Shown here one piece after another: positions 18,781 through 63,411 of a stretch of DNA of 64,000 bases (position 1 is its first letter; every line of letters starts with the position of its first letter). The notes under the pieces were generated by a model. It had not been told where the DNA came from and searched no databases. It was given only the letters and a program-made list of their open reading frames with translations. A program made the position numbers and the translations under genes. The stretch is from Porodaedalea pini. Its lineage: Eukaryota; Basidiomycota; Agaricomycetes; Hymenochaetales; Hymenochaetaceae. Where the stretch lies: assembly GCA_002794775.1 (NCBI GenBank), contig NBAY01000066.1, positions 62,001 to 126,000 of the forward strand. The letters are read 5' to 3'.

Positions 18781-19190
18781 GTCATATTATTGCTGTGTTT
18801 TTTTGTCGCACCTGTTCGCTCGCTCTCTTTTTCTTAGTGTTACCTTTCCCTATTGTGTTTGTGGAGTAACCTCATATTGCATTCTCTCGATTCTACTCTT
18901 TGTATTGTAACATTTCGGTAGAATCTTTATTTTTCGGCCTCTTGATACAGGAAAAACCTCCTGGCCGGAATCCCTGGAATCCCTGGAATCAGCTGGAATA
19001 TTTGAGCAATTCCAGCCAATTTGGAGGTATTCCAATTCCGCACGATTCCCAAGCATCGTTCCAGATTTGAGTAATTTGACTAGTTTCCGATACCTTTCTA
19101 CACATTTTTATTCACATTCTTACTGCATTCCAAACTTTTCAATCATTTTCTTACAGATTCTTGTGGCAATTGAGTGTATTTAAACAAATT

Positions 19191-20740
19191 CTAAACTAAA
19201 AGGATGTCACGGCCGGTCGTCGGAATGAAGCCTTTCACGGTCATCATGTACAGACCACCGGCGAACTTCTTCTCAGACTTGATGCCCAGGATGACGGGTA
19301 CGGCAAGCAGCTCCTTTTGTACATGCGACGATGTAAGGCGCGCCGCAGCATCGGTCTTGAGTTCCACAAAATCTACCTTGTGAAGCTTGGTCTCGCCGGT
19401 TTTGAGAGCACGCAAGTATGAAGCAATGTCAGCACGACATCGTCCCATTGTCACGACGCGCAGGCAAGACATGTACCTTGCCTTCGCGTGCTCGAACATC
19501 TCCTGTTGGATAGTCTTGAGAAATGCAGGTATGGCAGTCTCCTTCAAGCCCGTATCACGTCGCACAGAAAGTGTTTGCTTCTTCTGGATATCAACCGGAC
19601 CGAGTTCAAGGCAAAGTGGAACACCTGGACAAAAAGCCATTTGTAAGACCACAGGAAAACCGAGAAATAAGGAACAATTGAATTTTCGCGCCTTCTGTTT
19701 CCAGTCGTTGAACTTGTAGCCAGGAGTGTAGCCGTCCCGTACATCCACCTTCGCGCTTTCCTGAGCGTCTTCGCGAGCTCCTCACAGCGGTCCTATAACT
19801 CCTGCTTATTAGTGCGCATGGTAATACCGCAGGGGACAATGAGTGACACGTGATGGGAGAACAAGACCCTAGGCCTGGTTGTCGCCGCGAATCATAACCA
19901 TGATTCCGACCATGCGTGTGCTAAGGCTCCACGTGTTCTGCCACAGAATAATTTGCCACCGTTCGGACCCGTACCCTGCGGATCATCCAGGTCTGAGACC
20001 ACGACGTTGAACATCTCTGGCCGTGAGAAGTCTTGGCCAAGGCAATGCGACGTCGCAGCTTGGATGCCACGGCCGGTCATCGTGTAAAGACCACCGGCAA
20101 ACTTCTCCTTGTCCGACTTGATGCCTGTGATGACGAGTACGGTAAGCAGCACCTCGTACAAGCGATGATGTAAATTGAGAATTTCCCGTACTTCAGTGTC
20201 GGCCTCCTTCGTGAAATGCGCAGTGTGGCCTTCCTGTCATAGGAACTCGCGCGTACGGAGGAACGGCTCGGGGCTCTTGGACTCCCAGCGCGTAACACTG
20301 ATCCACTGGTTGGGCTTGAGGGGTAGATCACGATAGCTCTTGATACATTTGGTGTAGTAGGGATACATAGCCGTTTCTGTAGTCGGACGGATTGCTATGG
20401 GCTCCTCAAGTTCGGAGCTCCCTCTGAAGACGCATGTCATATCGACCTTAATCAGCGCCTATAATACTTGTCAGCACAAAGTGAGGGATTACAGAACAAT
20501 CAACGCACGTTCGTATACCAACCCGGAAAGTCGACCTCTTTCTTCATGCCAATAGCAATTTTCACCGTGCCGTCAATTCTCCCTTCCTCTTTCGTTGCCC
20601 TTTCCTGGGCGGCAATCGCAGACGTGCACACAGCAGGCACCACAGCCTCGGCCTTGAGTTCCACGAAATCTACCTCGTGAAGCTTGGTCTCCCCGTTTCG
20701 AGAGCACGCCAGTATGAAGCAATGTTGGTTCCAGGGAGGA
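19191..20740 (-). pseudogene. captured prolyl-tRNA synthetase fragments (element copy 1)
   Basis: Minus-strand pieces match class II ProRS in order: WYTN-VLIK, motif-2 region [15 protein letters not shown] and [14 protein letters not shown] (TGA in place of the expected Trp codon), then DKEKFAGGLYTMT-GRGIQAA with the usual VEGFIPTT segment lost. Further on come the anticodon-binding part ([14 protein letters not shown] in another frame) and DGYTPGYKFNDWKQK. After an intron comes CLELGPVDIQKKQTLSVRRDTG. The intron is retained, so capture was at DNA level. The block KLHKVDFVELK and the segment KFAGGLYMMTVKGFIPTTGR are repeated at the 3' end. It cannot encode a working synthetase. Confidence 0.85.
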
Positions 20741-20869
20741 AGACAGTAAAATCAGAGGCGAGGGCATGTACGGCGAAGAGAGAAGTCGATGATGTGAGTG
20801 CTCAACACTCACCCATCTCCTTGATTCTTGCGTTGAGCCGTTCTGTTGGCAAGTAAGAACCTGAAGTTA

Positions 20870-22093
20870 TGTTGCTCCTGTCGTGCCTTCTCTTTCGCGC
20901 CTGTATAAAGGTAAGCACAAGTGAAATTGAGTAACAAAGCAAGAGCGCGTACAGCCTCATGAATCTGGGCGATTGTCGACGGAGCAGCGACCAAGTTGCG
21001 AGTAGTCCGTTTCCTTTCCCGCAATTCAATCACATCCTGTCCAAGAAAGTCAGCTCAACGAAAGGCTATGAAACAGAAGGTACGCACTTGTAACATGAAC
21101 TACATACAAGACGACACGTTGCTGCTCTTCGCAAGCTCCTTCATCCGACTGAAATAGACATCCATGTGTCCGCGAGCCTTAGAGGTATCGAGCGCCTGAC
21201 AAACACTTGTCAGTAGTTTACATAAACTTTCGATCTCTTCCTCCTCGGGATTGTCGACGTTGCTGAGCAGCTTCTTGATACACTCATACATGATACGTTC
21301 CATGAGCATCTGAATATTGAAGAGCTCACCGATGAACTTGACGAGTCCGAGACCTTGACGCTTGGCCTTCTGAGCAGTGTGGTATTCATCCGAGTACAGC
21401 GCACTCTCGCCAGCCTCCTTGTTTTCTTCCTTTTCGTTGGCATCCTTAACAGCCTGATCCTCTGTCGCCTTCACGAGAGCCGCTGCCGCCATCGACTCCT
21501 TCTGCGTCCAGCCGCGCTCGAAGTCTTCCTGACAGCGATTCAGAAGGTACTTACGGAAAAGTTGATCACCTGTAATCGGCTTGCCCTCAGCATTGCGGAT
21601 ACCATCATCCTGCACGTTCGGACTGATCTGCTCCATCATCTTATGGCACAAGCGAGCATACATCTCACTCCAGGCCGCCTCATCCGTTGCCTTCTCGAAC
21701 ACAAGCCGAATGAGCTGAATGAGCGTACGCCCATCCTTCTCACTCTCACTCTTGTTTGCCCACGCAATGATCTGGTTTGAGATGGACTCCAACTTCTCCA
21801 TAGTGAGGCTTGTTGAGCAGCAAATGGACTTTCTTGTCCACAATCTCAGGTGAGTCTGTGTCAATTGAGGCCCCACACCTGGACGTGCTGCCCGCGGCCC
21901 AGCGGTTCGCAGACTGCTCGAGTGGCGCGACGTGTTCGAAGGAGGAAGTAGCATTCACTTTGAACTGATTGGTAGAAGCGCTGATACGGTCCGACTCGTT
22001 GCGTGTTGAGCCGCCACATTTCCTACGCGTACGCTTGTTGCCCACAGCGCCCGCGCCACCTGACTGGAAGAGCGAACCATAGGCGATGGACAC
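20870..22093 (-). pseudogene. captured eIF4G (MIF4G domain) fragment (element copy 1)
   Basis: The minus strand encodes the eIF4G middle domain that binds eIF4A: ISNQIIAWANKSESEKDGRT, LIRLVFEKATDEAAWSEMYA, VQDDGIRNAEGKPITGDQLF, KYLLNRCQEDFERGW and LGLVKFIGELFNIQML. The N-terminal linker (RKCGGSTRNESDRISAS) is in a different frame because of one extra base at the LLNKP/TMEKL junction, compared with copy 2. An intron of about 50 bp before DVIELRERKRTT is retained. The cognate full-length gene is not in this window. Confidence 0.88.
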
Positions 22094-22138
22094 CCCCCTG
22101 TGAATGGACAGTTTGTTCAGTGCAGAGAAGTTCAGACT

Positions 22139-22318
22139 TTATGGTCTTCGGCTTGAAGATGAGCAAGTTGAAAGTTGGAAGTCGGACGGCATGTTGCCTG
22201 CAGCAGTGAGTGCATCCCACCAGGCGGCCGGCGAAGCTACCACTTCGTGTGTGATGGTTGTGGTGGATGTGATCGAGGGTTTTTTCAGACGTTCTGTAAG
22301 GACGTCGGCACCAGACAT
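22139..22318 (-). CDS. small ORF MSGADV..., conserved in all three elements
   Basis: A 59-codon frame beginning MSGADVLTERLKKPSIT and containing SPAAWWDALTAAGN. The same ATG-initiated frame exists in copy 2 (34970-35149) and copy 3 (60053-60232), with amino-acid differences between copies. It could be an exon from a third captured gene or an element-specific product. No family recognised. Confidence 0.35.
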   Translation of the reverse strand: MSGADVLTERLKKPSITSTTTITHEVVASPAAWWDALTAAGNMPSDFQLSTCSSSSRRP

Positions 22319-22426
22319 ATTGGAGTGGCAGCAGATGTGAAGGCGTGTCGCGTCAAAACCAACATACATGTGATCAAGTTCCCACACCTCTTCTGTGGAT
22401 GACGCATCCAGGTGTGGGAAATTGGA

Positions 22427-23153
22427 CTTAGCAGTTTTTGTCATCTGAAGTGCCTCCAAATACAAAATACATCATATCTCACTCAATTCTTCACAAAAAC
22501 TCTTCAAAAAAGGTGCTAAATTTATGTCTGAATGGCTTCTAAAATTTAAGTGAGCTTAGAGGACAGAAGGTGGAATATTGAGACTGCAGTAGTGAAAATG
22601 GGTGTTTTTCTTGAAAAACTCCTTCCCTGATTTTTCCTGAGCTCAATTTTGAAGCTAATGACATGAAGCTTGTTGGAGAATGGTATCTATATTGTATATT
22701 AAATTATAGATGGCTTATAACAATGCAAGCATTTTTTGACAACTGTCTGAGTCAAGCAAATTTGGGTGAGTTTGAGAGTTTCAGCACAACAGTCAAACAG
22801 GACAAGAGGAGACATTCACTCTAGTTCATCCCTGATAACATCAACAGTATAATATATAGACCATTCTCCAACAAGTTTCATGTCATTGGCTTCAAAATTG
22901 AGCTCAGGAAAAATCAGGGAAGGAGTTTTTCTAGAAAAACACCCATTCTCACTACTGCAGCCTCAATATTCCACCTTCTGTCTACTAAGCTCACAAACAT
23001 TTAGAAGCTGTTGAAAAATAAATTTGGCAACATTTTTGAAATGATTCTGTGAAGAATTGACAGAGATATGGATTTTACAAGTTTTTGAGGTGCTGAAATG
23101 CTCAAATTTTGTGATCTTCACATATGCATGTCTCAAGACTTATGAAAAACACT
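22427..23153. repeat. nested palindromic (fold-back) segment, copy 1
   Basis: Arms at about 22450-22700 and 22845-23100 are imperfect inverted copies (for example GGACAGAAGGTGGAATATTG against its complement ending at 22982). Its right edge reads GACTTATGAAAAACACTG-TA and its left edge TA-GCAGTTTTTGTCATC. These resemble the ends of the mariner-type MITE in copy 2 (CAGCCTTTTTCATAAGTC), so this is probably an older MITE carried along by the element. Confidence 0.6.
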
Positions 23154-23489
23154 GTAACCTGCAGATAGTTCATGGGTCCCAGTATAGGTCCAAGAAGCCA
23201 ATCTAGTACCTGCACCTGTGTCAAGCCATGGCAGAATCTAATGAATTCCACAATCAGTTTTTTATTCTACAAAATTCCATAGAATCTATGAGGTGTGTCA
23301 TTTTTCTATCCATATTCTAAATTTCAAGCTGCCGATTCTGTTCAACTCCAAAACTTGGACAATTTTCCATGAAATTCTACAAGTTTTCTAAATGTTGGAC
23401 CGCATTCTCATGACATTCCAAAGATTCTACAATTTCCTACAATTCTAATAACTTTCTAAGGGTTTCTGAGTGGGAGGTTTTTCCTGATG

Positions 23490-24533: not shown

Positions 24534-24874
24534 CACTTCTGAATGTATGCAAATACTTTTCATCGTGAGGTGTTTCAATGCTGATGCCTGTTGCAGTGTG
24601 TCCTAGATGTAGATTATATTAGGCTTGTTATTCGTGTGCTCTGTATCTCTGCACCTAGGCAGCACTCACCAACCGATTCCTCGCCTTATTTTAGTCCGGA
24701 TAACTATACCCACATGTCCCCGACCTTGTATGCACTCTGATTAGCGTGCCTTTAAAGGTTGTGTTCCGAGTCATAAGGATTATGAACACATGACCAATGA
24801 ATGTCGAGATCTGCATTCCTATAAATATCCTTATCCTCTGTCGACCGGCGCTCATCTTTCTATTCTCCTCTCTC

Positions 24875-33069: not shown

Positions 33070-33481
33070 CATCAGGAAAAACCTCCCAACGGAATATCAT
33101 GGAATAATTTTAGAATAGAAAGACATTTGTAGAATAGTTCGGAATGGCATTAGGATGGATTTGGACCCCTTGGAATTGCATGGAATTGAGTAGAAAAAAG
33201 GATCTGTATTGGAATTTGCTAGAACCGGCAAGGTGGTTTGTGGAATTGCACGAAATTGAGTAGAAAAATAAAATTGTATTGGAATTTGCTGGAATCGGCA
33301 AGGTGGGTTGTGGAATGAGACAGAAAATGTTATAGCAAATGCAGCATTTGAGCACCTCAGAAACTTGTAAAATCTATATCTCACTCAATTCTTCACAGAA
33401 TCAGTTCAAAAAAGTTGCTAAATTTATGTTTCGATGGCTTCTAGAATTTTGTGAGCTTAGTGGACAGAAGGTGGAATATTA

Positions 33482-34330
33482 CAGCCTTTTTCATAAGTCC
33501 CGCGACACGTGCATGTCACGTGAAATGAGCCGCATCAGAGCCAAAGTGTCAAAAAATTAGAATGAATGCCTATTTTCTCTGTGAATTCTGCACAGTACCT
33601 GCTCATTAAGTACTCAAAAAAAAGGCACAGTTCTCAGGAGAAGAAATATGTAAAATAGGGAGCAATAAATTGACTGTGTAGGCGGGTGGAGATCAAACAA
33701 GTGCAGCTGGTCTGTTCTCTCACCCATTTCCACTGAGATTCAAAAATTATGGCTCCCCTACATCTACCTATAAAATTCTTTCCTGTATCTGTAAATTAAG
33801 TATATGACTATACCAACATCTCCTGCAAGTTTGAAGCCAATCCATTCAGTATTCATGGTCCAGCAGCAAGATTTGTGTTCCACTTCAAGCTCTTTCCACC
33901 CTCCTTTTCTCACAACAGGTCTTGCAGAGTAGAACACAAATCTTGCTGCTGGACCATGAATACTGAATGGATTGGCTTCAAACTTGCAGGAGATGTTGGT
34001 ATAGTCATATACTTAATTTACAGATACAGGAAAGAATTTTATAGGTAGATGTAGGGGAGCCATAATTTTTGAATCTCAGTGGAAATGGGTGAGAGAACAG
34101 ACCAGCTGCACTTGTTTGATCTCCACCCACCTACACAGTCAATTTATTGCTCCCTATTTTACATATTTCTTCTCCTGAGAACTGTGCCTTTTTTTTGAGT
34201 ACTTAATGAGCAGGTACTGTGCAGAATTCACAGAGAAAATAGGCATTCATTCTAATTTTTTGACACTTTGGCTCTGATGCGGCTCATTTCACGTGACATG
34301 CACGTGTCGCGGGACTTATGAAAAAGGCTG
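33482..34330. mobile_element. fold-back mariner-type MITE nested in element copy 2
   Basis: Two 399-bp arms (33482-33880 and 33932-34330) are almost perfect reverse complements around a 51-bp loop. It starts CAGCCTTTTTCATAAGTCC and ends with the complement, flanked on both sides by TA (33480-33481, 34331-34332), the target duplication of Tc1/mariner elements. The uninterrupted sequence is seen in copies 1 and 3 (TGGAATATTGAG-CTGCAGTAG). No coding capacity. Confidence 0.88.
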
Positions 34331-34332
34331 TA

Positions 34333-34860
34333 AAGCTGCAGTAGTGAGAATAGATGTTTTTCCAGCAAAACTCCTTCCTTGATTTTTACTGAGCTCAAAT
34401 TTGAAGCTAATGACATGACACTTGTTGGAGAATGGTCTATATATTATATGGTTGATTTTATGAGGGCTGAACTAAAGTGAATATTAATGTCTCCTCTTGT
34501 TCTGCTTGACTGTTGTGCTGAAACTCTCAAATTTGCTTGACTCAGATAGTCTTCAAAAAATTGCCTGCATTGTTATAAGCCATCTAAAATTCAATATACA
34601 TTATACAGACCATTCTCCAACCATTTCATGCCATTAGCTTCAAAATTGAGCTCAGGGAAATTCAGGGAAGGAGTTTTGCTAGAAAAACACATATTCCCAC
34701 TACTGCAGCCTCAATATTCCATATTCTGTCCTCTAAGCTCAAACAAATTTTTGAAACCATTGAAACATAAATTTAGCAACTTTTTTGAAGAGTTTTTGTG
34801 AAGAATTGAGTTAGATATGATGTATTTTGTATTTGGAGGCACTTCAGGTGACAAAAACTG
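34333..34860. repeat. rest of the older palindromic segment, copy 2
   Basis: Together with 33345-33480 this matches the palindromic segment of copies 1 and 3, split here by the nested MITE. Confidence 0.6.
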
Positions 34861-34969
34861 CTAAGTCCAATTTCCCACACCTGGATGCGTCGGTGTGGGA
34901 ACTTGATCACATGTATGTTGGTTTTGACGCGGCGCGCCACACAGTCTTCACATCTGCTACCACTCCAAT

Positions 34970-35149
34970 ATGTCTGGCGCCGATGTCCCTACAGAACGTC
35001 TGAACTTACCCTCGATCACACCCACCGCAACCATTATGCACACAGCAGTAGCCTTACCGGCCGCCTGGTGGGACGCACTCACTGCCGCAGGCAACACGCC
35101 GTCCGACTTCCGACTTTCAACTTGCTCATCTTCAAGCCGAAGACCGTAA
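34970..35149 (+). CDS. small ORF MSGADV..., element copy 2
   Basis: 59 codons (MSGADVPTERLNLPSIT, ALPAAWWDALTAAGN). It occupies the same position as in the other copies, between the palindromic segment and the eIF4G fragment. Function unknown. Confidence 0.35.
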   Translation: MSGADVPTERLNLPSITPTATIMHTAVALPAAWWDALTAAGNTPSDFRLSTCSSSSRRP

Positions 35150-35205
35150 AGTCTGAACTTCTCTGCACTGAACAAACTGTCAAGTGAAAAGTGCTTCATG
35201 TGCTC

Positions 35206-36930
35206 GACGTCAATGAGTGGTGGGCACGGCGGCCTTCCATTCGCAGGCGGGCGTCCATCGCCTATGGTTCGCTCTTCCAGTCAGGTGGCGCGGGCGCTGT
35301 GGGCAACAAGCGTACGCGTAGGAAATGTGGCGGCTCAACACGCAACGAGTCGGACCGTATCAGTGCTTCTGCCAATCAGTCCAACGTGAATGCTACTTCC
35401 TCCTTCGAACACGTCGCGCCGCTCGAGCAGTCTGCGAACCGCTGGGCCGCGGGCAGCACGTCCAGGTGTAGGGCCTCAATTGACACAGACTCACCTGAGA
35501 TTGTGGACAAGAAAGTCCATTTGCTGCTCAACAAGCCCACTATCGAGAAGTTGGAGTCCATCTCAAACCAGATCATTGCGTGGGCAAACAAAAGTGAGAG
35601 CGTGAAGGATGGGCGTACGCTCATTCAGCTCATTCGGCTTGTGTTCGAGAGGGCGACGGATGAGGCGGCCTGGAGTGAGATGTATGCTCGCTTGTGCCGT
35701 AAGATGATGGAGCAGTCCAGTCCGAACGTGCAGGATGATGGTATCCGCAATGCTGAGGGCAAGCCGATTACAGGTGATCTGCTTTTCCGTAAGTACCTTC
35801 TGAATCGCTGTCAGGAAGACTTCGAGCGCGGCTGGACGCAGAAGGAGTCGATGGCGGCAGCGGCTCTCGTGAAGGCGACAGAGGATCAGGCTGTTAAGGA
35901 TGCCAACGAAAAGGAAGAAAACAAGGAGGCTTGCGAGAACGCGCTGTACTCGGACGGATACCACACTGCACAGAAGGCCAAGCGTCAAGGTCTCGGACTC
36001 GTCAAGTTCATCGGTGAGCTCTTCGATCTTCAGATGCTCACGGAACGTATCATGCATGAGTGCATCAAGAAGCTGCTCAACAACGTCGACAATCCCGAGG
36101 AGGAAGAGATCGAAAGTATATGTAAACTACTGACAAGTGTTTGTCAGGCGCTCGATACCTCTTAAGGCTCGCGGACACATGGACGTCTATTTCAGTCGGG
36201 TGAAGGAGCTTGCGAAGAGCAGCAACGTGTCGTCTTGTATGCAGTTCATGTTACAAGTGCGTACCCTCTGTTTCCTAGCCTTTCGTTGAGCTGACTTTCT
36301 TGGACAGGATGTGATTGAATTGCGGGAAAGGAAATGGACTACCCGCAACTCGGTCGCTGCTCCGTCGACAATCGCTCAGGCGGTACGCGCTCTTGCTTTG
36401 TTACTCGATTTCACTTGAGCTTACCAATATACAGGCCGCGAAAGAGAAGGCGCAACAGGAGCAACATAACTTAGCGCGGTCGGCCATGTCTCGCGGTGGT
36501 TCACGCCGTGGCCATGATCGTGACGGAAATGTTCAAGTCGGTCCCGATGGATGGGCTGTCTTCTCTGGCCCTTCGAGGCCTGCAAACGAGGCGGGTGATC
36601 TGACGAACTCTGGCAAGATTCAGAAGGGCAGTGGCACCATGAACTTCGAACCCACTAGCGTCTTCACGAAGAAGGGAGACAGCAAGCGCGACAGTGCGAG
36701 CCTTTCAAGGACGAGTTCGAACACGAACATGTTCCAGATGCTGCAGGCCGCTGAGGCCGCTAATGAGGCTCCTACTGCATCTTCGTCTCGTCCAAGTCAC
36801 CCGTCAAGCCGTACAACGAGCGTCCACTTGACCCACAACGCACCTCTCGAACCTGCCCAACCTGCTCAGCGTCCCAGACTCAACCTGCTTCCCCGTTCGA
36901 AGCCCATGCAGGAGAAGTCGGAGAATAGTC
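35206..36930 (+). pseudogene. captured eIF4G (MIF4G and downstream) fragment, element copy 2
   Basis: The longest eIF4G piece. N-terminal linker and MIF4G domain are in one continuous frame up to 36165 (RASIDTDSPEIVDKKVHLLLNKPTIEKL...), unlike copies 1 and 3. The frame then breaks at LDTS because of one extra T (CTCTTAAGG against CTCTAAGG). The eIF4G region continues after an intron (DVIELRERKWTTRN) and a second one (KEKAQQEQHNLARSAMSRGG). A Ser/Arg-rich tail follows (VGPDGWAVFSGPSRPAN, MNFEPTSVFTKKG). No ATG begins it in frame. Confidence 0.87.
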
Positions 36931-36934
36931 GGCG

Positions 36935-37420
36935 CGAAAATTCAATCATTCCTTATTTCTCGGTTTTCGTGTGGACTTACAAATGACTTTTTGTCCAGGG
37001 TGTTCCACTTCGCCTTGAACTCGGTCCGGTTGATATGCAGAAGAAGCAAACACGTTCTGTGCGACGTGATATGGGCGTGGAGGAGACTCCCGTACCTGCA
37101 CTTCTCAAGACTATTCAACAGATGTTCGAGCGCACGAAGGCTCTGTACACTCTGTACATGTCTCACCTGCGTGTCGTAACCAAATGGGACGATGTCGTGC
37201 CGACACTCGACAGCAAATATGTTGCAGTCCTTCCGTGGTGCGAAGAGAAAGTGTGCGAAGACGACATCAAGGAGCACAGTGGACGCAAGTACGTGTCTCC
37301 TCTCCTTCCTCCACTTTGCTAAAGGGAGCTGACCATTATTCTATTCTACAAAGCTTGGAACCACAAGACGTACGCGCGCCGTCCGCAGGCGCAAAGTCGT
37401 GTGCCATTCCCTTCAATTAG
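36935..37420 (+). pseudogene. captured prolyl-tRNA synthetase C-terminal fragment, element copy 2
   Basis: Starts inside a ProRS intron (GCGCGAAAATTCAAT...GTCCAG, also in copies 1 and 3) and continues RLELGPVDMQKKQTRSVRRD, HLRVVTKWDDVVPTLDSKYV, WCEEKVCEDDIKEHSGR and the true end VRAPSAGAKSCAIPFN. The catalytic domain is absent. eIF4G and ProRS parts are joined directly, so this is a chimera. Confidence 0.87.
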
Positions 37421-37868
37421 GTGCAGTACCCACCCATCGAGTCTGGTGCCAATAGCACTCGCAGAACTGGAGACTGCCGTATCTATGATCAGCATTGTGG
37501 CTATTATTCACGGTGATCTTCCTGGTGTGCTCCATGACCTGTTTGTTAAGTAGGTTGAGTAATTACGGACATGTATGGAATGAGTACAGAATAGCATAAT
37601 TTATATTGATGAAAGTTTGGAATACGCAAATAAATGAGGAAGGAAAATCGGAATACACGAATAAACAATGAAGAAAAATTGAAATGCACGAATAAATGAC
37701 GAAGAACTACTGGAATGCACAAATAAATGACATAGAATACTAGAGAAAGTCTAGAATACCACGGAATACGGAACACCCTTATAGAATCTGCCTAGTATGG
37801 AATCAGTCGGAATCACCGGCTGATTCCGGCGATTCCGCTATTTTCCGCCGGGGAGGTTTTTCCTGATG

Positions 37869-46700: not shown

Positions 46701-47794
46701 GAGACAACACTCTGTTGTTTGCTTAAGAAGTTTAATGATAGCCCGTTGAAGCGTTGGAACTTTATTGGAAAGATCGTCGATCGAACAGACATATTTGAAT
46801 GTTTCTTCCATGGTGCTCACGAGGCCGAGGACCGCCTTGTCATTTTCGAACTGCTTCGAAACGACCTGTGCAGTGATGTCCATGTAAGACATATCTCACA
46901 CAATGAACTGACGCGGAACGTACCTTAAACATAGATGAAGTCACTTGCCACGCGGCATTCAGGTAAAGGTGGACCTATTCACGCTAAAAGATCAACAATC
47001 CTTACCACCGAAACCGTGAGACTCACTGTGGATATCTGGTCAATGATGTTGGTAAATATGCTCAGATTTGCGCAAAGGCTAGTGAAAGATTGATATAAAG
47101 CGCTGTCCGCGCCCAGCTCAGTAGCCAGCCCGTCGATCTGAGATAAAATCCCAGTTGCCGCTGATTGCACAATCCCGCGACGCTCAACTTCCTGGACGAC
47201 AGCTTTGAGATCAATGTCGACCTCTTTCCTCAGATCAGTGGCCTTGAGGCGTAGATGAATAGTACCCGTCACTGGCGATGGCTCAACGCTGCCATGCGGT
47301 AGAAAGAGCTCGCGCTGAACTAAAACTGATTGAGTCCAGGCCAAAGTCAGGCAATACGATAGTTGGACCAATTTCCTTCGACATTAGCGTACTTCAACAG
47401 GTCAGAAAGACTAATCTCGATAGAGCCGACACAGGGGTTGGGCTTCCAGAACAGCCGGAATAATGATTTATGTTTGAGTCGAATGTTGAAGACCGCAGAA
47501 TCACTCGGCGACGAGCTGCGCACGTAGTGTTGAGTGTCACTGAAGTTGAGCTTCTGAGAGTACTCACAATGTCAGAGTGTCATTCCAAGCGGGCGACATA
47601 TCCCTTTTGATTATCCGCGTTTGCCTAGCATCGTCACCGAAGTCGACTTTAACGTAAAGATTCGGCGCCTCCTCAAGAAATTTTGGTTTCCAAACCACAT
47701 CTTGAACGCGGAGAACTGCAAAAGATGTCAGAGCTGAACAGGCTGCGTGAACCAGAGACGAACCTTGGAGGGAATAGCGAGTGGGCTCGGACAT
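43781..47794 (-). CDS. C2-NACHT-WD40 NLR-like protein
   Basis: Join complement(43781..44866, 44919..46414, 46466..46612, 46667..46865, 46924..46974, 47027..47314, 47383..47515, 47568..47715, 47764..47794): 1192 residues with consistent phases. Residues about 10-110 are a C2-like domain (VLRVQDVVWKPKFL, NLYVKVDFGDD, KRDMSPAWNDTL). A helical region follows, with KLLKQTTECCLFVRD. The NACHT NTPase begins near 333: Walker A GVAGSGKST (about 380), Walker B IIIILDALDECG (about 480), RFVITGRPEDDI. A winged-helix-like spacer precedes five WD40 units ([16 protein letters not shown]...). The C-terminus is GWILGKQGELLLWIPPDIRP. This is the STAND/NLR plan used in fungal non-self recognition. No stop or frameshift seen; the exon at 47383 has an alternative boundary. 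Confidence 0.85.
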
Positions 47795-50299
47795 GATAGA
47801 GAGGAGTCAAGCTGGGCCTCGCTATCTGCAGCATTCCCCAAGCCCATCGTCGTCTTATATCCACTTGATGCCCTGAGATATTGGAGCATGATCGAGACTC
47901 GAGGTATAAAAAGGGCTTTGTATTGGATGCCCTCTTCACGTGACCGTACCTCGATGCTTCCGCGCATTTCGCAGCCAAAAAAGGCTTGTTGTATCAATCG
48001 ACGATGAGATCTATGTAGGACGACGAGCATGTTTTGGTTGTGATATATGGGGCCTTGATGTTGGACGCCTCGCTGCACCTTTGTTCGCCTGAGCTGCATC
48101 GCGCGCTTAATCTTACGAGGGTTTGTAGCTGCAATTTCTATTGAAGATGTTCTTCTGATATTCGAACACACAGTTGCGTGGACTCGCTGCATCCTGGCGC
48201 TCCCGGAGAAGTAATCAGCACAAACGCCCCCGATCTGCTCGCACTCTTCGCCCATAGTCGACACGCTTTGCTTCTACACCCGCGCGCCTTTGAAAGCCGT
48301 CCTCAAATTTGTGTCAGGTACTCATGGCGTATTAGTACTCTTCACCAACGCTGAACTTGAACTCACGATCTGTGGCGGAACACGAATGGCCACACAAATG
48401 GATCAGTCGACTACTCTTCAACGACACGGGCGCGCCAACCCTACTCGCATCCGACTTACAATTCACATCGTCCGTAGGATGAGTGGAATGCCGACGGGAC
48501 CGGAATCAGCTTACCCTGATACGAGAGCCATGGGGAAGACATATACTTGGATGGTGTTATCCACGCACTGGCCAGATGATGGGGTAGTCTTCGATGCGCT
48601 GTTGGTACGGCGCTCGTCTGGCACAAGGAAGAAGTCCTGCCTTCATCGAGCCCGAATACGACACGATAGGCGCCAAGGGCTTCTGGCCGCAGTACTAGTC
48701 TGGCGGGCGGAGCTCGTTCTTTACATTGAGTCATCCACTCGGTATTCAACACTGAGTGGGGCAGCCGCCGGATCTTGATCTGAGCTTGCTTAGTAATGGG
48801 AGGGGGTTCTCGGATGGGAAGGTTCATTTCGTGCGTGCCCGCGCTACTGGTCTTATTCGGCCCGAATCACGGTGTAAGTTTTCTCCTTCCTCGGATCGTT
48901 CTCTTCTAATATGAAGCTTCCTTTAGACAATCGCGTCGAAACTCCTGAGCCGGGCTTATTCGTTCGGGAAGGCGCTCGCGGGATGGGTGACAAAGTCAGG
49001 AAAGTCCAGGTTGACGAGCTGCTCTTTCGTGCTCGGCTGGTGAACTGAAGCTCGTCCATGCATGTCGTACTTAGCGAATGCGCCGGCCCGATCTTAGGAC
49101 TCATGAGGGATGACGTTTGGATCCGCTGTCTGTGCGTTCATTTCGCTTCCCTTCTCCTTTTCTGGTTTTGAAAGCTTGACTGTCTTGCAGGAATTGCGCG
49201 AACTCGGCCACATCCTGAGTCCTCGTGAGGAGGGCAACGTCGTCTCACTCGCGTTTAAACTACTCTGTCGCTAGCATGTGGCACTCAGCGAACGCGACAA
49301 GGCATGGACGGAGCGTACGTTCGAGGTCAAATTGGTATGTATCTTCGTGTCTTCTAGATGAGATTGGTATTGATTGTTGGTTCACATTACGGTAGACAAT
49401 TTTCAACATTCTTTGGCTACGAAGTTGCGCCTTTATGCGGGCATGCGGAAGTGGACGTTCGACGGGTACGTTTTGTTCTCTTTACTCGGTTTCTGTCCTT
49501 TGTTGAAATTGACCAGTGGATAACAAAGCGCCTGCTCACGACGCTCGTTAGCCGCTTTCTAGAGTGCAGCCCTGTGGCGCTACTGCAGGCCGTGACGGAA
49601 GCGCATGCCGGCGCGTTAAAAGGTGAATGGCATACCCGAGGTACTTCACATCATGGAAATTGTATATATCAAGCAGGCCTGGTAGTGGAGAACGTGCATG
49701 GTAAAGTTACATGTCCTCCCAATGGAAATAGTGATGCTAATGGGTATATTTAGATCAATGAGTTCAGGGAACTCATGAGGCTGGAGCTACTTTGGACATT
49801 TGCGGAGTAGAATTCGGACCGGAAATCAATGTACGCTATATTGAGTCTCATTCATATTCGTGACTCTCATGAACTAATATAAAATGACCAGAAAACTGCA
49901 AAATGTTTTATGACAGTATCGACAACCCCGAGCTGCATGTCAGGCTCCGAATGGAAGAGGCGAAGCCTCCCATCCCAGGCGCTTCCCTCTGTTTGGGGCA
50001 TACAATCCTGTGTGCAGTCCTTGCGGACTCCGCTCCACTTGTAAGAGGCGATAGGTTCCTTACCACAGACTTCACTAGTACTGTCACATCTCACATAATA
50101 CTTTGTCCACGTCTTCCTTAATATGATTGTATTATCGATATGTAGTCAACAAATTGAAGTCGGGGAGTCACCTGGCTGCTTCCTACAGAAGTACGACGGC
50201 GCATACTACTACTACTACTGCCGCTACGCGTCAAAGCCCAGACGGCTCTCGTTATTGTTGTTAAATACTGACCGTGCCGGATCACATGCTGGAGATTGC
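47795..50299. other. no assigned gene; degenerate coding traces
   Basis: About 48290-49800 has long but interrupted frames on the plus strand (for example WISRLLFNDTGAPTLLASDL, SKLLSRAYSFGKALAGW, TLVSRFLECSPVALLQAVTEAHAGALKGEW). They change frame repeatedly, which suggests a decayed gene, but I do not recognise the family. Confidence 0.35.
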
Positions 50300-54786: not shown

Positions 54787-57700
54787 TTACTTCGGCACGA
54801 AGAAGCCCTTTTGCCAGTCCATTCCCAGGGCACAGTCCGTAAAGTGCAGTATTGTCGAAAATCGGCGGCTAAAGACTGCGGTATTGCGAGGGTGCCAAAG
54901 CGTTGGACTTATATCAGGTGGAATCCATAAGAGTAGCTCCCCTTGTTTACCAAGTATCCACCCGTCCTCAGACATGATCCAGTTTAAGTTTAAGTTTCCC
55001 TTGGGTGACCCTGAAGGCACATTCCCTTTGTCCACATTTGAAACATTGATGACTCCGTCCAGAGAGCCCGAGACGCTGTGCATCCCGTCGGGCGAGAACG
55101 CAACCGAGGTGACATTTTCTGTAAGCACTTCCATGGGATCCGAGACGATCTCCCCGCTTTCAGCGTCCCAAACACGGACGGACCGATCCCAAGAGCCCGA
55201 GACGACGTGCTTCCCGTCAGGTGAGAATGCGACCGACTCGATGCTGGCCCTGTGCCCTTTAAACGGACCTGAGACAATGTCCCCGCTTTCTGCATCCCAA
55301 ACACGGACGGACCGATCCCAAGAGCCCGAGACGACGTGCTTCCCGTCAGGTGAGAATGCGACCGACTCGATGCTGGCCCTGTGCCCTTTAAACGGACCTG
55401 GGACAATGTCCCCGCTTTCTGCATCCCAAACACGGATCGAACAATCCTCAGAGCCCGAGACGACACACTTCCCGTCAGGTGAGAATGCGACCGAGTTGAC
55501 ACTGGACGTGTGCCCTTGAAACGTGCCCGAGACGACCTCCCCAGTTTCTGCATCCCAAACACAGATCGAAGCATCCGCAGAGCCCCAGACGACATGCTCC
55601 CCGTCAAGAGAGAACGCGACCGAGTTGACACTTTCCGCGTGCCCTTTGAACGGGCCCGAGACGACCTCCCCACTCTGTGTCCCAAACACGGATTTAACAA
55701 TCCCTTGAGCCCGAGACGACCCGCTTCCCGTCTGGCGAGAGCGCGACCGACCAGACGCTGTCTGTGTGCCCTTCAAACGGGCCCGAGACGACCTCCCCGC
55801 TTTCCGCGTCCCAAACAAGGATCGAATGATCCCCAGAGCCCGAGACGACCCGCTTCCCGTCTGGTGAGAACGCGACCGACAAGACCCAGCTCGTGTGCCC
55901 TTGAAACGGGCCAGAGACGACCTCCCCGCTTTCCGCATTCCAGACACGGATCGAATGATCATAAGAGCCCGGGGCGACACGCTTCCCGTCAGGAGAGAAC
56001 GCGACCGAGTTGACACTGTCCGTGTGGCCTTGGAAAGTCTTAATGCATGGTGTCGATGCTTTGGTTCCTAAACGATGTATGCGAACGACGGGGTGCGTCT
56101 TTGAATAATGGTCTGAGACAACTGATTCCCCTTTCGAAAGACTAAATGTGGAGAGGTAGATGTGTGGCGCGCTTTGTGAAATCGGTAATGCAAAGATGCT
56201 GGAAAGCCTATAGGCATCCCATAAGAAGGATGAGATCTCGCTGTGGTTTGACTACCAGAACATGAGCTGTATGGATTTAAGAAAACCGGACTGATGCACT
56301 AACCGCAGTCCACAGAACACCATCGAGAAGGGCGCGACCGGCGAGGCGACGGAAGTGTTTCGTCAGACTGAGGACTTCGAACCAGTGGAGTAGGTGGTCT
56401 CTTGCAAAAGTCGACAATCTGTCAAGCAAGCAGGGCGAGGATAGAACGTCGCGAAGATGTTCGGCCCAGAAACGGCAAGCATATTCCAAGTGCGGCGGTA
56501 TCTCCTCCTGGATACGACCATGAAGCCCCTCGACTTTATCATTGTGGTCGAATGATGTCTGTATGTTGCAGATGTTGAAGCGTAGTAACTTCGCCATAAC
56601 ATCAAAACATCGAGTGGCTATCATCTGCTTCTGGTCGTTGATGTTGATGAACCAGTGGTCTGCGTAACGCTCAGGTGCCATGAGGTAGTCGGAAAAAGAA
56701 GCGTGGAAAAGGCGGACAGGCGCATCGGGCATATCAAGCGTGTACGCGAGCACGCTCTGAAGTCTTGAGATAATGAGGCGTGATGATGATTCGGATGGAA
56801 AGCCTAGGATACCATCAATGGTTGCAACTGAGAGCGGGGTCCTGCTAAGTAGGATTAGACCAAGTACGCCTGAAAACCGGTCTTTGGATATATTATCCTC
56901 CCAGGAAATTCCCGAATGGGAGAGAACAGAGGCATACAAATCATTTAGACCAAACTCGCCAAGCAGTCGCGAAGTTGAAATGAGTCCAAGGAGTTCTTCG
57001 AGTTTTCGGAGTGGATCGTCGCTGAGAGAAACAAGCTTAACGGCTGTCGACCCCCATATGAAAAGCCCCCCTGCTGTCTTTCCAAAAATAGTCATATTCG
57101 TATCCCATGGCCAACCCACCGGCACTTTGACCCCCGCGCTCGCGAGGATCGCGCGCATCTCGTGGTCAATGTACCGAAGTACGTCATTGTGAGTGGCCGC
57201 CGAAGAGTAATCTAGTTCCATTCCACGAACAGATGGCTGCGATGATAAGGCTTTGTGGATATCCGCCTCCGATCGACTCGTAATGAGGATTCGAAAAGTC
57301 TTAGGAAGTTTTGGGAATTCTCGGGAGATAAGCCGCAAAAGGTTACGACGAGTATCAAATGTGCCACATTCGTCCAACGCGTCGAGGACAACGATAACAG
57401 GACCTTGCATGGCATCGGCAGCGGCAGTGAGAGGCTCCAGCAGGAGCTTCTCGAACTGGCTTGCTGCTGAGGCTGAACCAGTGTCACTGAGGCCCTCGAT
57501 AGTTGCCACGACGTGTGTTGCAATCGAGGAGTCAAATAATGCTAGCGTGTAAGCAATCGTCCGGATGACAGAAGCGGGATCGCTCTTTCCCCGTTCAAAG
57601 AAAAGAAACCCGCCAAGACGAGATATGCCACGAAAGTATTCTGCGATACTCGTACTGATGGTGCTTTTGCCGGAACCCGCAACGCCATACAGCCACAGTA

Positions 57701-58914
57701 TGTTCCGGCCTGTATCCGTCAGCATCCATTCCATGATTTGGTTTCGGACGTCGACCCTTGTTCCAGGAAAGCAATGCGGGCGATCAAACGCGTCCATTTG
57801 AATAGGATTGAGTCGTTGACGTAGAGCTGATTAAAACACTTCAATGAAGTTCAATCGGTATACGAGTTACTATACGCACATAAAGTATCGACTTTTTCGG
57901 ACGTCCGTGCAGAAACAAAAGAAGAGTATAGATTCTTTCCCACTTTGAGTGCTTCCTTGAGATCGACTAAAGACTGTTGCAGTTTAACTATTTTCTCGCT
58001 GCTGGCCACGTTAAGCATCCGTCCTTGCATGAAGTTAATGTTTTGCGAATACATCGCAGACGATTAGGCTCACTAGCATTGTCCTGGGGAATATATTGTC
58101 GGATAAAGAGACAACACTCCGTGGTCTGCTTTAAGAGTCGGATGGTGGTTTCTATAAGATTCTCGGTCTTGTCGGGAAGAGATAGCGTGTCGCAGAGGAC
58201 CTCGTTTCTGTGGCATACACAAGACTAACAATTCTCTGGTCACTCCTAGACTGATTTGAGACGCCCTGCAATCAAGCATCTCGAATTAAGACGTGTATTA
58301 TGCAACAAGCTTAGTGCACTGGACGTACCTCATATAGTCCAAAAGCGCTTTCAAATGCAAGGTATAGGTAAAGGTAGATCTAGTCTCCAATTATCAACCA
58401 TACGCACGATTGCGAGCATATCACTTACTTCGGATTTATTGTCAACAGATATGTAAATTGAGCTCAACTTCGAAAAAAGAGCTTGAAGCGATTCGTGCAA
58501 GACACCCTCCTCACTCAATTGATGTGCTTCGTTGAGAGTTTCAATCGCACTGGACCCTACAGTCCCCGCTTGGTTTGCGATCCTGCGCCGTTTAACATTT
58601 GGGCGGTCTGTGTCGCGATCACCATCCGGTCTCGACACATCTTTCTCATTGGAAGGCTTCTGCAAGTGTTCCAGGATCTCAGCCATGTCAGTGCGCGTCT
58701 CGGGATCGTGATCCCAACAAAGCAGGCAGATGTTCCAAAGAATTTCCTTCGCTTCCAGTCTGTGCGAGCTCCAAGAGTCGGACGGCGGGAGAAAGGGCAG
58801 CTCACGCCTTGCGATGGCTAGTAGTACCTGCGCATCCGAGAGACCCACATATGGAAGCTGTTGGGTGAGTAACGCCTTTGAATAGCACGGGTTACTACTC
58901 TTATGATACCACAT
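54787..58914 (-). pseudogene. kinase-NACHT-WD40 NLR-like gene, 3' part
   Basis: From the element edge downwards: kinase C-lobe (ALLTQQLPYVGLSDAQVLLAIA, NICLLCWDHDPETRTDMAEI), a helical region (ESLQALFSKLSSIYI, RLLKQTTECCLFIRQY), NACHT exon 56277-57797 region (Walker A GVAGSGKST, Walker B IVVLDALDECG), then from 56251 eight WD40 repeats and GWILGKQGELLLWIPPDISP. The intron before the WD40 exon ends CTGGTAG at 56252, as in the gene at 43781. Lesions: a frame slip near 58195 (YATETRSS against CDTLSLPDK), and a TAA at 55694-55696 with a frame change in the fourth repeat. Repeats 6 and 7 (about 55180-55431) are nearly identical. Confidence 0.85.
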
Positions 58915-59265
58915 ACGATAACATCAGGAAAAACCTCCCACTCAGAAACCCTTAGAAAGTTATTAGAATTGTAGGAAATTGTAGAATCTTTAGAATGTCA
59001 TGAGAATGCAGTCCGAAATTTAGAAAACTTGTAGAATTTCATGGAAAATTGTCCAAGTTTTGGAATTGAACAGAATTGGCAGCTTGAAATTTAGAATATG
59101 GATAGAAAAATGACACACCTCATAGATTCTATGGAATTTTGTAGAATAAAAAACTGATTGTGGAATTCATTAGATTCTGCCATGGCTTGACACAGGTGCA
59201 GGTACTAGATTGGCTTCTTGGACCTATACTGGGACCCATGAACTATCTGCAGGTTACAGTGTTTT

Positions 59266-59945
59266 TCATAAGTCTTGAGCATTTCAGCACCTCAAAAACT
59301 TGTAAAATCCATATCTCTGTCAATTCTTCACAGAATCAGTTCAAAAATGTTGCCAAATTTATTTCTCAACAGCTTCTAAATGTTTGTGAGCTTAGTAGAT
59401 AGAAGCTGGAATATTGAGGCTGCAGTAGTGAGAATGGGTGTTTTTCTAGAAAAACTCCTTCCCTGGTTTTTCCTGAGCTCAATTTTGAAGCCAATGACAT
59501 GAAACTTGTTGAAGAATGGTCTATATATTATACTGTTGATGTTATCATGGATGAACTAGAGTGAATGTCTCCTCTTGTCCTGTTTGACTGTTGTGCTGAA
59601 ACTCTCAAACTCACCCAAATTTGCTTGACTCAGACAGTTGTCAAAAAATGCTTGCATTGTTATAAGCCATCTATAATTTAATATACAATATAGATACCAT
59701 TCTCCAACAAGTTTCATGTCATTAGCTTCAAAATTGAGCTCAGGAAAAATCAGGGAAGGAGTTTTTCAAGAAAAACACCCATTCTCACTACTGCAGTCTC
59801 AATATTCCACCTTCTGTCCTCTAAGCTCACATAATTTTTAGAAGCCATTCAGACATAAATTTAGCAACTTTTTTGAAGGGTTTTTGTGAAGAATTGAGTG
59901 AGATATGATATATTTTGTATTTGGAGGCACTTTCAAAAACTGCTA
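59266..59945. repeat. nested palindromic segment, copy 3
   Basis: Counterpart of 22427-23153, starting TTACAGTGTTTTTCATAAGTC. It has inverted arms around about 59520-59690. Confidence 0.6.
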
Positions 59946-60052
59946 AGTCCAATTTCCCACCTGGATGCGTCATCCACAGAAGAGGTGTGGGAACTTGATC
60001 ACATGTATGTTGGTTTTGACGCGACACGCCTTCACATCTGCTGCACTCCAAT

Positions 60053-60232
60053 ATGTCTGGTGCCGACGTCCTTACAGAACGTCTGAAAAAACCCTCGATC
60101 ACATCCACCACAACCATCACACACGAAGTGGTAGCTTCGCCGGCTGCCTGGTGGGATGCACTCACTGCTGCAGGCAACATGCCGTCCGACTTCCAACTTG
60201 CTCATCTTCAAGCCGAAGACCATAAAGTCTGA
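60053..60232 (+). CDS. small ORF MSGADV..., element copy 3
   Basis: Same start as in copies 1 and 2. A 7-bp loss near the 3' end changes the last residues (FQLAHLQAEDHKV) yet the frame still closes after 59 codons. Confidence 0.35.
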   Translation: MSGADVLTERLKKPSITSTTTITHEVVASPAAWWDALTAAGNMPSDFQLAHLQAEDHKV

Positions 60233-60270
60233 ACTTCTCTGCACTGAACAAACTGTCCATTCGCAGGCGC

Positions 60271-61500
60271 GTGTCCATCGCCTATGGTTCGCTCTTCCAG
60301 TCAGGTGGCGCGGGCGCTGTGGGCAACAAGCGTACGCGTAGGAAATGTGGCGGCTCAACACGCAACGAGTCGGACCGTATCAGCGCTTCTACCAATCAGT
60401 TCAAAGTGAATGCTACTTCCTCCTTCGAACACGTCGCGCCGCTCGAGCAGTCTGCGAACCGCTGGGCCGCGGGCAGCACGTCCAGGTGTGGGGCCTCAAT
60501 TGACACAGACTCACCTGAGATTGTGGACAAGAAAGTCCATTTGCTGCTCAACAAGCCTCACTATGGAGAAGTTGGAGTCCATCTCAAACCAGATCATTGC
60601 GTGGGCAAACAAGAGTGAGAGTGAGAAGGATGGGCGTACGCTCATTCAGCTCATTCGGCTTGTGTTCGAGAAGGCAACGGATGAGGCGGCCTGGAGTGAG
60701 ATGTATGCTCGCTTGTGCCATAAGATGATGGAGCAGATCAGTCCGAACGTGCAGGATGATGGTATCCGCAATGCTGAGGGCAACCCGATTACAGGTGATC
60801 AACTTTTCCGTAAGTACCTTCTGAATCACTGTCAGGAAGACTTCGAGCGCGGCTGGACGCAGAAGGAGTCGATGGCAGCAGCGGCTCTCGTGAAGGCGAC
60901 AGAGGATCAGGCTGTTAAGGATGCCAACGGAAAGGAAGAAAACAAGGAGGCTGGCGAGAGTGCGCTGTACTCGGATGAATACCACACTGCTCAGAAGGCC
61001 AAGCGTCAAGGTCTCGGACTCGTCAAGTTCATCGGTGAGCTCTTCAATCTTCAGATGCTCATGGAACGTATCATGTATGAGTGTATCAAGAAGCTCAGCA
61101 ACGTCGACAATTCCGAGGAGGAAGAGATCGAAAGTTTATGTAAACTACTGACAAGTGTTTGTCAGGCGCTCGATACCTCTAAGGCTCGCGGACACATGGA
61201 TGTCTATCTCAGTCGGATGAAGGAGCTTGCGAAGAGCAGCAACGTGTCGTCTCGTATGTAGTTCATGTTACAAGTGCGTACCTTCTGTTTCATAGCCTTT
61301 CGTTGGGCTGACTTTCTTGGACAGGATGTGATTGAATTGCGGGAAAGGAAACGGACTACTCGCAACTTGGTCGCTGCTCCGTCGACAATCGCCCGGATTC
61401 ATGAGGCTGTACGCGCTCTTGCTTTGTTACTCAATTTCACTTGTGCTTACCTTTATACAGGCCGCGAAAGAGAAGGCACGACAGGAGCAACATAACTTCA
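60271..61500 (+). pseudogene. captured eIF4G (MIF4G) fragment, element copy 3
   Basis: Same content as in copy 1, including the extra base at LNKP/HYGE that separates the N-terminal linker frame from MEKLESISNQIIAW. It differs by ECIKKL-SNVDNSEEEE (one codon shorter). Introns after SRM and before the KEKARQEQHN part are kept. Confidence 0.88.
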
Positions 61501-61619
61501 GGTTCTTACTTGCCAACAGAACGGTTCAACGCAAGAATCAAGGAGATGGGTGAGTGTTGAGCACTCACATCATCGACTTCTCTCTTCGCCGTACATGCCC
61601 TCGCCTCTGATTTTACTGT

Positions 61620-63165
61620 CTTCCTCCCTGGAACCAACATTGCTTCATACTGGCGTGCTCTCGAAATGGGGAGACCAAGCTTCACGAGGTAGATTTCGTG
61701 GAACTCAAGGCCGAGGCTGTGGTGCCTGCTGTGTGCACGTCTGCAATTGCCGCCCAGGAAAGGGCAACGAAGGAGGAAGGGAGAATTGACGGCACGGTGA
61801 AAATTGCTATTGGCATGAAGAAAGAGGTCGACTTTCCGGGTTGGTATACGAACGTGCGTTGATTGTTCTGTAATCCCTCACTTTGTGCTGACAAGTATTA
61901 TAGGCGCTGATTAAGGTCGATATGACATGCGTCTTTAGAGGGAGCTCCGAGCTTGAGGAGCCCATAGCAATCCGTCCGACTACAGAAACGGCTATGTATC
62001 CCTACTACACCAAATGTATCAAGAGCTATCGTGATCTACCCCTCAAGCCCAACCAGTGGATCAGTGTTGCGCGCTGGGAGTCCAAGAGCCCCGAGCCGTT
62101 CCTCCGTACGCGCGAGTTCCTATGACAGGAAGGCCACACTGCGCATTTCACGAAGGAGGCCGACACTGAAGTACGGGAAATTCTCAATTTACATCATCGC
62201 TTGTACGAGGTGCTGCTTACCGTACTCGTCATCACAGGCATCAAGTCGGACAAGGAGAAGTTTGCCGGTGGTCTTTACACGATGACCGGCCGTGGCATCC
62301 AAGCTGCGACGCTGCATTGCCTTGGCCAAGACTTCTCACGGCCAGAGATGTTCAACGTCGTGGTCTCAGACCTGGATGATCCGCAGGGTACGGGTCCGAA
62401 CGGTGGCAAATTATTCTGTGGCAGAACACGTGGAGCCTTAGCACACGCATGGTCGGAATCATGGTTATGATTCGCGGCGACAACCAGGGTCTTGTTCTCC
62501 CATCACGTGTCACTCATTGTCCCCTGCGGTATTACCATGCGCACTAATAAGCAAGAGTTATAGGACCGCTGTGAGGAGCTCGCGAAGACGCTCAGGAAAG
62601 CGCGAAGGTGGATGTACGGGACGGCTACACTCCTGGCTACAAGTTCAACGACTGGAAACAGAAGGCGCGAAAATTCAATTATTCCTTATTTCTCGGTTTT
62701 CCTGTGGTCTTACAAATGGCTTTTTGTCCAGGTGTTCCACTTTGCCTTGAACTCGGTCCGGTTGATATCCAGAAGAAGCAAACACTTTCTGTGCGACGTG
62801 ATACGGGCTTGAAGGAGACTGCCATACCTGCATTTCTCAAGACTATCCAACAGGAGATGTTCGAGCACGCGAAGGCAAGGTACATGTCTTGCCTGCGCGT
62901 CGTGACAATGGGACGATGTCGTGCTGACATCGCTTCATACTTGCGTGCTCTCAAAACCGGCGAGACCAAGCTTCACAAGGTAGATTTTGTGGAACTCAAG
63001 ACCGATGCTGCGGCACGCCTTACATCGTCGCATGTACAAAAGGAGCTGCTTGCCGTACCCGTCATCCTGGGCATCAAGTCTGAGAAGAAGTTCGCCGGTG
63101 GTCTGTACATGATGACTGTGAAAGGCTTCATTCCGACGACCGGCCGTGACATCCTTTTAGTTTAG
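61620..63165 (+). pseudogene. captured prolyl-tRNA synthetase fragments, element copy 3
   Basis: Order on the plus strand: KLHEVDFVELK block; [26 protein letters not shown] with [24 protein letters not shown]; KSDKEKFAGGLYTMT joined to [51 protein letters not shown]; intron; CLELGPVDIQKKQTLSVRRD. It ends with a second KLHKVDFVELK block fused to KKFAGGLYMMTVKGFIPTTGR. The same stops as in copy 1 show that the decay preceded their duplication. Confidence 0.86.
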
Positions 63166-63411
63166 AATTTGTTTAAATACACTCAATTGCCACAAGAATC
63201 TGTAAGAAAATGATTGAAAAGTTTGGAATGCAGTAAGAATGTGAATAAAAATGTGTAGAAAGGTATCGGAAACTAGTCAAATTACTCAAATCTGGAACGA
63301 TGCTTGGGAATCGTGCGGAATTGGAATACCTCCAAATTGGCTGGAATTGCTCAAATATTCCAGCTGATTCCAGGGATTCCAGGGATTCCGGCCAGGAGGT
63401 TTTTCCTGATG

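Follow-up and report, generated by a model that had tools for sequence, protein, structure and literature searches.

The stretch of the Porodaedalea pini genome analyzed here, 64,000 nucleotides long and hereafter called the window (bases 62001-126000 of contig 66, C66), carries three units, W1, W2, and W3, that share 17-bp terminal inverted repeats (TIRs) and enclose pieces of two translation genes, eIF4G and prolyl-tRNA synthetase (ProRS). An earlier note on this DNA had marked out the three units by their inverted ends, and its coordinates were recovered: W1 lies at 18945..23489 on the minus strand, W2 at 33070..37868 (+), and W3 at 58922..63411 (+). Six ends match the 17-mer CATCAGGAAAAACCTCC with at most three mismatches, against a chance expectation of 0.19, and five of them are exact. 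A TIR search of the window places the exact ends at 23473..23489 (-) in W1, at 33070..33086 (+) and 37852..37868 (-) in W2, and at 58922..58938 (+) and 63395..63411 (-) in W3; the left end of W1 (18945..18961, +) has decayed by three mismatches, reading ATACAGG in place of CATCAGG. W1 and W3, which lie in opposite orientation, are 97.4% identical and form one class; W2 represents another. Judged by its ends, duplication check, and comparison with other units, W1 appears to be a non-autonomous Plavaka-type element with C6R and C7R end types. W3, of the same class, has the target duplication AA. W2 appears to be a non-autonomous Plavaka-type element as well, with a third end type and no target duplication seen, and it holds a nested foldback insert of ~849 bp with 406-nt arms and a TA target duplication (33482..34330).

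What do these units carry? Alignment was made to an open eIF4G gene at C33:45400-47800 (L072; L-numbers denote fetched loci and C-numbers contigs). The eIF4G piece of W1 (20864..22108, -) corresponds to L072 491-1739 at 91.8% identity with both introns present, that of W3 (60256..61498, +) covers the same positions, and that of W2 (35156..36930, +), which also gave a structure match, covers L072 411-2197, again with both introns. The W2 frame matches the solved eIF4G of yeast at E 1.4e-37. A profile search with TIGR00408 located ProRS catalytic pieces in W1 (19754..20422, -; C66:81754-82422; 165.8 bits) and W3 (61940..62602, +; C66:123940-124602; 163 bits), and an anticodon-binding match in W1 fell under the Pfam cut-off (17.4 of 21 bits). 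In W2, profile and sequence searches found a C-terminal ProRS piece (37163..37519, +). All three units carry eIF4G; of ProRS, W1 and W3 have the catalytic piece and W2 the C-terminal one only. Pfam found nothing in a frame in the left part of W1 (window 22104-22337), and Rfam and tRNA scans of the window returned no matches.

Genome-wide searches covered 53.27 Mb in 201 contigs. The exact 17-mer occurs at 183 sites, 90 forward and 93 reverse, and its reversed control at none. We listed 150 of the 183 positions and computed pairing on the first 100 listed, among which neighboring TIRs no more than 8 kb apart form 37 convergent pairs spanning 3.2 to 7.4 kb, two divergent pairs, and no same-strand pair. 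The 37 convergent pairs and one further pair each on C37, C40, and C41 were fetched, and these 40, together with W1-W3, make up the 43 units compared below. A 2-bp direct duplication lies flush outside the ends in 37 of 42 units (W1 being excluded for its decayed end), against 7% for shuffled partners, and the duplicated target dinucleotides are of 13 different kinds. A 3-bp duplication would fit one unit of the 42. When the flanks of the 43 units were joined, an uninterrupted relative spanning the junction, that is, an empty site, was found for two. For L046 the site lies in a WD40 repeat, as seen in four alignments (153-239 bases, 73-74% identity), three of them gapless, and for L044 it lies in the window itself at 63421-63470 (90% over 50 bases, gapless). 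An empty site for W2 was not counted, as its joined-flank match had only 17 bases left of the junction and a renewed search found none across it. Because of the 2-bp duplications at their ends and the two empty sites, the units are insertions rather than duplicated segments.

Where is the transposase? A profile search for the Plavaka transposase domain PF18759 gave 64 matches in the genome; none of the 64 lies within the 43 units, over all of which this was the one transposase family searched. The earlier note, having recognized no transposase, had expected a partner elsewhere that shares the TIRs, and such elements were located: PF18759 domains lie inside larger TIR pairs with the same 17-bp ends. 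In six cases the domain, split into two adjoining pieces, ends a set distance from an exact TIR, namely 1709 bp on C36, C7, C3, and C26, 1628 bp on C6, and 1627 bp on C40. Five of the six, all but C26, have a known exact end at either side, with spacings of 11.7 (C36), 13.5 (C7), 25.2 (C3), 20.6 (C6), and 12.2 kb (C40). All four long TIR pairs that were checked, three with transposase (C3, C6, C7) and one with cargo (C1), have a 2-bp duplication; this, with PF18759 inside five, weighs against the idea that the long pairs are chance pairs of lone ends. The last 3 kb of the C36 element (L071) hold a 562-residue frame matching PF18759 at E 2.4e-77, with an upstream piece at 1.1e-23. By pattern alone, L071:591-2279 contains CPTC at 139 and HWMKH at 350, corresponding to the C(2)C and H(3-4)H motifs, and its closest named proteins come from Sanghuangporus, also Hymenochaetaceae (57-59% identity). 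The domains of C36, C7, and C3 have no in-frame stops. Two more Plavaka domains, both containing stops, were located at 9250 bp (C45) and 9237 bp (C52) from an exact TIR. Most likely, the cargo units were moved by a Plavaka-type transposase of the larger elements with the same ends. At C93:12720-16191, ~2 kb separate a ProRS C-terminal piece from a Plavaka domain that is interrupted by in-frame stops.

Outside the shared 17 bp, three end sets can be told apart among the 43 units. Twelve units have both ends like those of the C6 transposase element (189 bp at 92-95% at one end and 152-157 bp at 89-92% at the other, in six of the 12 rows). Another 21 combine one C6-type end with one C3/C7-type end (133 bp at 86-88% in six rows), and the remaining ten form the W2 class, nearest to W2 itself. 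One eIF4G-ProRS cargo is thus found between three different pairs of ends, a result that either end replacement or cargo transfer could produce. A trade of ends between two transposase subfamilies, with the cargo kept, may indicate how elements of this kind renew their mobility.

The superfamily, left unnamed in the earlier note, can now be given as Plavaka, a relative of CACTA/CMC elements, since ends, duplications, and PF18759 fit. As published, PlavakaB elements have termini 5'-CATCA..TGATG-3', target duplications of 2 or 3 bp, and a PF18759 transposase in which C(2)C and H(3-4)H motifs occur; the group is placed in the CMCT clade, and some members carry TET/JBP genes (PMC12730594). Termini of the CATCA..TGATG form occur in 42 units (all but W1) and at the ends read of C1, C3, C6, C7, and C36; of this agreement, only the fit of the 17-mer to the published termini is independent of selection. 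Our family thus resembles PlavakaB in its termini, its 2-bp duplications, and, in the larger partner, the PF18759 transposase bearing C(2)C and H(3)H. It differs in that the 43 units are without PF18759 and carry eIF4G and ProRS pieces in place of the TET/JBP genes reported there. In Marasmius oreades, KDZ and Plavaka elements jointly make up about half of the DNA elements, and both are called understudied (PMC8290104).

Pack-type capture is known mainly from plants. Like plant Pack-CACTA and Pack-MULE elements, the units are amplified, non-autonomous TIR elements whose pieces of host genes retain introns; unlike them, they belong to another superfamily, live in a fungus, and descend from one cargo lineage rather than from many separate captures. 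Pack-MULEs have 9-bp target duplications, and no such duplication was seen, none of the 42 units matching over 4 bp or more. Pack-CACTA elements have CACTA termini, which the units do not. The diversity of capture amounts to two genes within one lineage, an HMG-box piece having arrived with a nested second element. A literature search, whose coverage left out preprints and most subscription papers, found no Plavaka element with pieces of ordinary host genes; this is Pack-type capture by a superfamily for which no earlier such report was found.

Which genes were the donors? ProRS pieces are present in all 43 units, 39 of them with the catalytic part and four (L058, L061, L066, and W2) with the C-terminal part only; the frame of a related unit, L039, matches both the solved ProRS and EPRS of the human type. 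Among 68 ProRS matches (58 candidates scored out of 455), the strongest lies on C57 (387.7 bits) and is probably the host gene. A 288-bp stretch of cargo is 88% identical to it. Across the ProRS C-terminal region, the C57 gene and five copies have identical stops (one TGA and two TAA), which would fit one retained ProRS intron. The eIF4G piece occurs in 26 of the 43 units. The copies are collinear with L072 from position 411, with identities of 91.5%, 94.6%, and 93.6% for exons 1 to 3 and of 84.8% and 93.2% for the two introns between them. All 26 eIF4G-bearing units retain both introns that fall in the captured range, so this piece was captured from genomic DNA, in agreement with the earlier note. 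We infer that the genes on C33 and C57 were the donors. The closest named eIF4G proteins are three entries from Phellopilus nigrolimitatus (Hymenochaetaceae; 73-79%). C33 itself carries inverted eIF4G copies at 45400-47867 (+) and 76083-78519 (-), which agree at 100% of the first 405 bases and at 98% of bases 250-620; the pair reflects either a duplicated host gene or an effect of the assembly.

How many times was eIF4G captured? On the left, 40 of 74 candidate places were scored, and 26 of these break at one and the same base, L072:411. The remaining 14 comprise both C33 copies and a separate repeat, present 12 times, with the 5' part of eIF4G. W1 and W3 have the L072:411 border followed by a small internal deletion. 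On the right, one junction is common to 34 of 41 matches (40 of 237 candidates scored), and the C33 eIF4G match ends at base 177 of the junction query. Since the breakpoints are shared on the left and the right, a single capture is indicated. Nine of the 34 right-junction matches lie outside the listed TIR pairs (on C24, C71, C135, C31, C45, C21, C79, C34, and C25), at 87-96%. Copies of eIF4G-ProRS with MIF4G split between frames and the same junction lie outside the listed pairs at C24:32491-35512, C71:18207-21825, C135:3501-7119, C31:103154-106175, and other places. The separate repeat, with its eIF4G 5' part at 86-93%, occupies 12 places (two on C106 and one each on C143, C54, C171, C77, C48, C42, C38, C23, C15, and C7), and no MIF4G match among those listed falls within 25 kb of any of them. 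At least two repeat families have taken up copies of eIF4G.

The 17 units without eIF4G bear on the order of events. The seven of them that were inspected all align up to the left breakpoint (core position 1323 of L050) and resume at ~3435-3457, except L069, which is aligned in two steps there; L033, L053, and L040 hold ~150 bp of their own sequence between 1323 and the resume point. In L050, ~64 bp separate the end of eIF4G (3376) from position 3441. A search with word size 7 found no residual eIF4G in any of the 17. On an unrooted tree of the shared sequence, in which the W2-class rows are 51-57% filled, the eIF4G label changes twice against 13.6 times in shuffles. We read this as one gain of eIF4G and one return to the pre-capture form, the return having come about through exchange with an older element and not by deletion, because units of the eIF4G-less groups of 11 and six rows keep the same stretch at the site (L033 against L053 and L040). 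The eIF4G-less units look like the pre-capture form. ProRS is taken as the earlier cargo because it is present in all units and is 88% identical to the host gene in the one piece compared.

What has become of the cargo? Over 339 codons in the host register, 26 copies were compared with the C33 gene. Distinct minority variants among the copies are distributed 59:73:74 over the three codon positions, and the fixed differences that set the copies apart from the C33 gene 8:7:32. The eIF4G gene has been constrained in the past; the cargo copies have not. Variants from C to T or from G to A are found at 66 of 146 CpG sites versus 55 of 399 other C/G sites, a pattern that would fit neutral decay under cytosine methylation, and the cargo repeats are presumably methylated.

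Taken together, the units are very probably non-autonomous Pack-type DNA transposons of the PlavakaB group, CACTA/CMC relatives with a two-step capture and cross-mobilization. In essence this is what the earlier note had proposed, a multiplied non-autonomous TIR element of an Agaricomycete with two translation genes, and the 183 ends, the duplications, the retained introns, and the PF18759 domains within larger TIR pairs bear it out. Plavaka transposase from the larger elements would bind the shared 17-bp ends, and the element would be cut out and reinserted, duplicating 2 bp of target whatever the dinucleotide. An ancestor would first have taken up ProRS genomic DNA. Later, ~2.05 kb from the eIF4G gene, introns as well as exons, would have replaced a ~150-bp stretch within an element that already carried ProRS, ectopic synthesis during repair of a break being the likeliest route, and the composite eIF4G-ProRS element would have multiplied afterwards. 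The cargo would be a passenger, not maintained as protein and subject to faster CpG decay, as in methylated repeats. Both cross-mobilization by Plavaka transposase and capture through break repair are steps that we infer. One genome here shows the capture order, both eIF4G breakpoints, units of pre-capture appearance, and transposase elements with the same ends, and the capture mechanism is thereby open to comparison and experiment.

Several points weigh against this reading. The 40 fetched units were picked through exact TIRs, so that exact ends are met by selection; six units (W1, W2, L033, L042, L058, and L059) are without a target duplication; and the support for movement consists of sequence features. 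The W2 end type, found in ten of 43 units, matches no end read from a transposase element, and the sequence read from these elements comprises ~3 kb of C36 and 1.5 kb per end of C3, C6, and C7. PF18759 has in-frame stops in C6 (one TGA), C26 (one TGA), and C40 (three TGA), and C6 is the element whose ends are most like those of the cargo units (the C40 ends lying outside the comparison). Changes by codon position among the C3, C7, and C36 transposases, over 810 bases, are 16:5:4, 5:8:8, and 15:9:8, with no third-position excess. On C33, finally, there is the second, inverted eIF4G copy. The position of an intron could account for some of the transposase stops. A working partner is not proven, because the C6 and C40 transposases hold in-frame stops; our estimate for Pack-type transposition is unchanged by them, because C36, C7, and C3 show none.

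Could the family have spread without transposition, as segmental duplications of one chimeric eIF4G-ProRS locus? L037 and L069 have matching flanks and may be one duplicated insertion, but theirs is the only full flank match between units among the 43 joined flanks, and 37 of 42 units have 2-bp duplications right at their ends and two empty sites are present, which makes this explanation highly improbable. The earlier note had named two findings that would speak against its view, the lack of further TIR copies and plain segmental duplication, and the genome shows neither. A reading of the units as Helitrons or retrocopies with gene pieces is more improbable still. Both carry gene pieces in other organisms, and Helitrons have neither TIRs nor target duplications. 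The gene-carrying Helitrons of Pleurotus ostreatus are like our units in being basidiomycete transposons with captured genes and unlike them in being rolling-circle elements (PMC4289320). The TIRs and 2-bp duplications of the units are at odds with a Helitron, and the introns kept in 26 of 26 with a retrocopy.

If the units are Pack-type transposons, might their cargo nonetheless serve a function? The earlier note had suggested a MIF4G decoy protein; open frames in some copies would be its source, and selection would act on it as protein. Half of the copies (13 of 26) are indeed free of stops over the 339 codons, but all 26 miss at least one base of the compared stretch, and a decoy is very unlikely because the copy variants fall equally on the three codon positions, whereas the fixed differences do not. 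Action as RNA, in which antisense or small RNAs would dampen eIF4G or ProRS or help to silence the family, would draw on the ~91% identity of the 26 compared copies to host exon 1 and on the CpG transition excess, as in methylated repeats; the ~9% divergence, however, would leave few long identical runs, and such a role seems unlikely. A wider proposal, in which Plavaka elements swap cargo and ends as modules, the block having passed among at least three end sets of different transposase subfamilies, and in which the amplified cargo yields small RNAs that tune or silence host translation genes, would be distinctly unlikely on the present evidence.

Some units are composites. Foldback inserts related to that of W2 occur in L037, L039, and L055. 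L031 and L038 share a 2.1-kb insert (core positions 290-2412 in L031) that ends in CATCACGAAAAC, is flanked by an AT duplication, and contains an HMG-box frame; it is probably a second cargo element of PlavakaB type. The outer 2-bp duplications of the two units differ (AA and AG), and the composite has therefore moved as one. The extra segments of W2 (TA), L036 on the right (TAA), L070 (TA), and L031/L038 (AT) were considered as further captures and rejected, as their ends and duplications point to nested elements. Extra segments are also present in L032, L054, L036 (left), and L069. Pfam gave nothing above cut-off over ten frames of L032, L036, L054, and L070; the HMG box, in L031, is the only domain named. 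The flanks of L037 and L069 are reverse complements of each other, with the foldback insert added in L037, and the two may be one insertion copied within a larger duplication.

The window also contains genes unrelated to the units. NPHP3_N/NACHT genes with WD40 repeats of 129-bp period, belonging to the STAND (NLR-like) group, lie at 43787-46427 and 54793-57830 (-) and at 17453-18169 (+), and more repeats are found at 15.1-29.6 kb. The WD40 repeat that L046 interrupts in another part of the genome is of this STAND kind. A fungal tryptophan gene of the TRP1 type, with GATase, IGPS, and PRAI in a single frame, occupies 8157-10478 (-).

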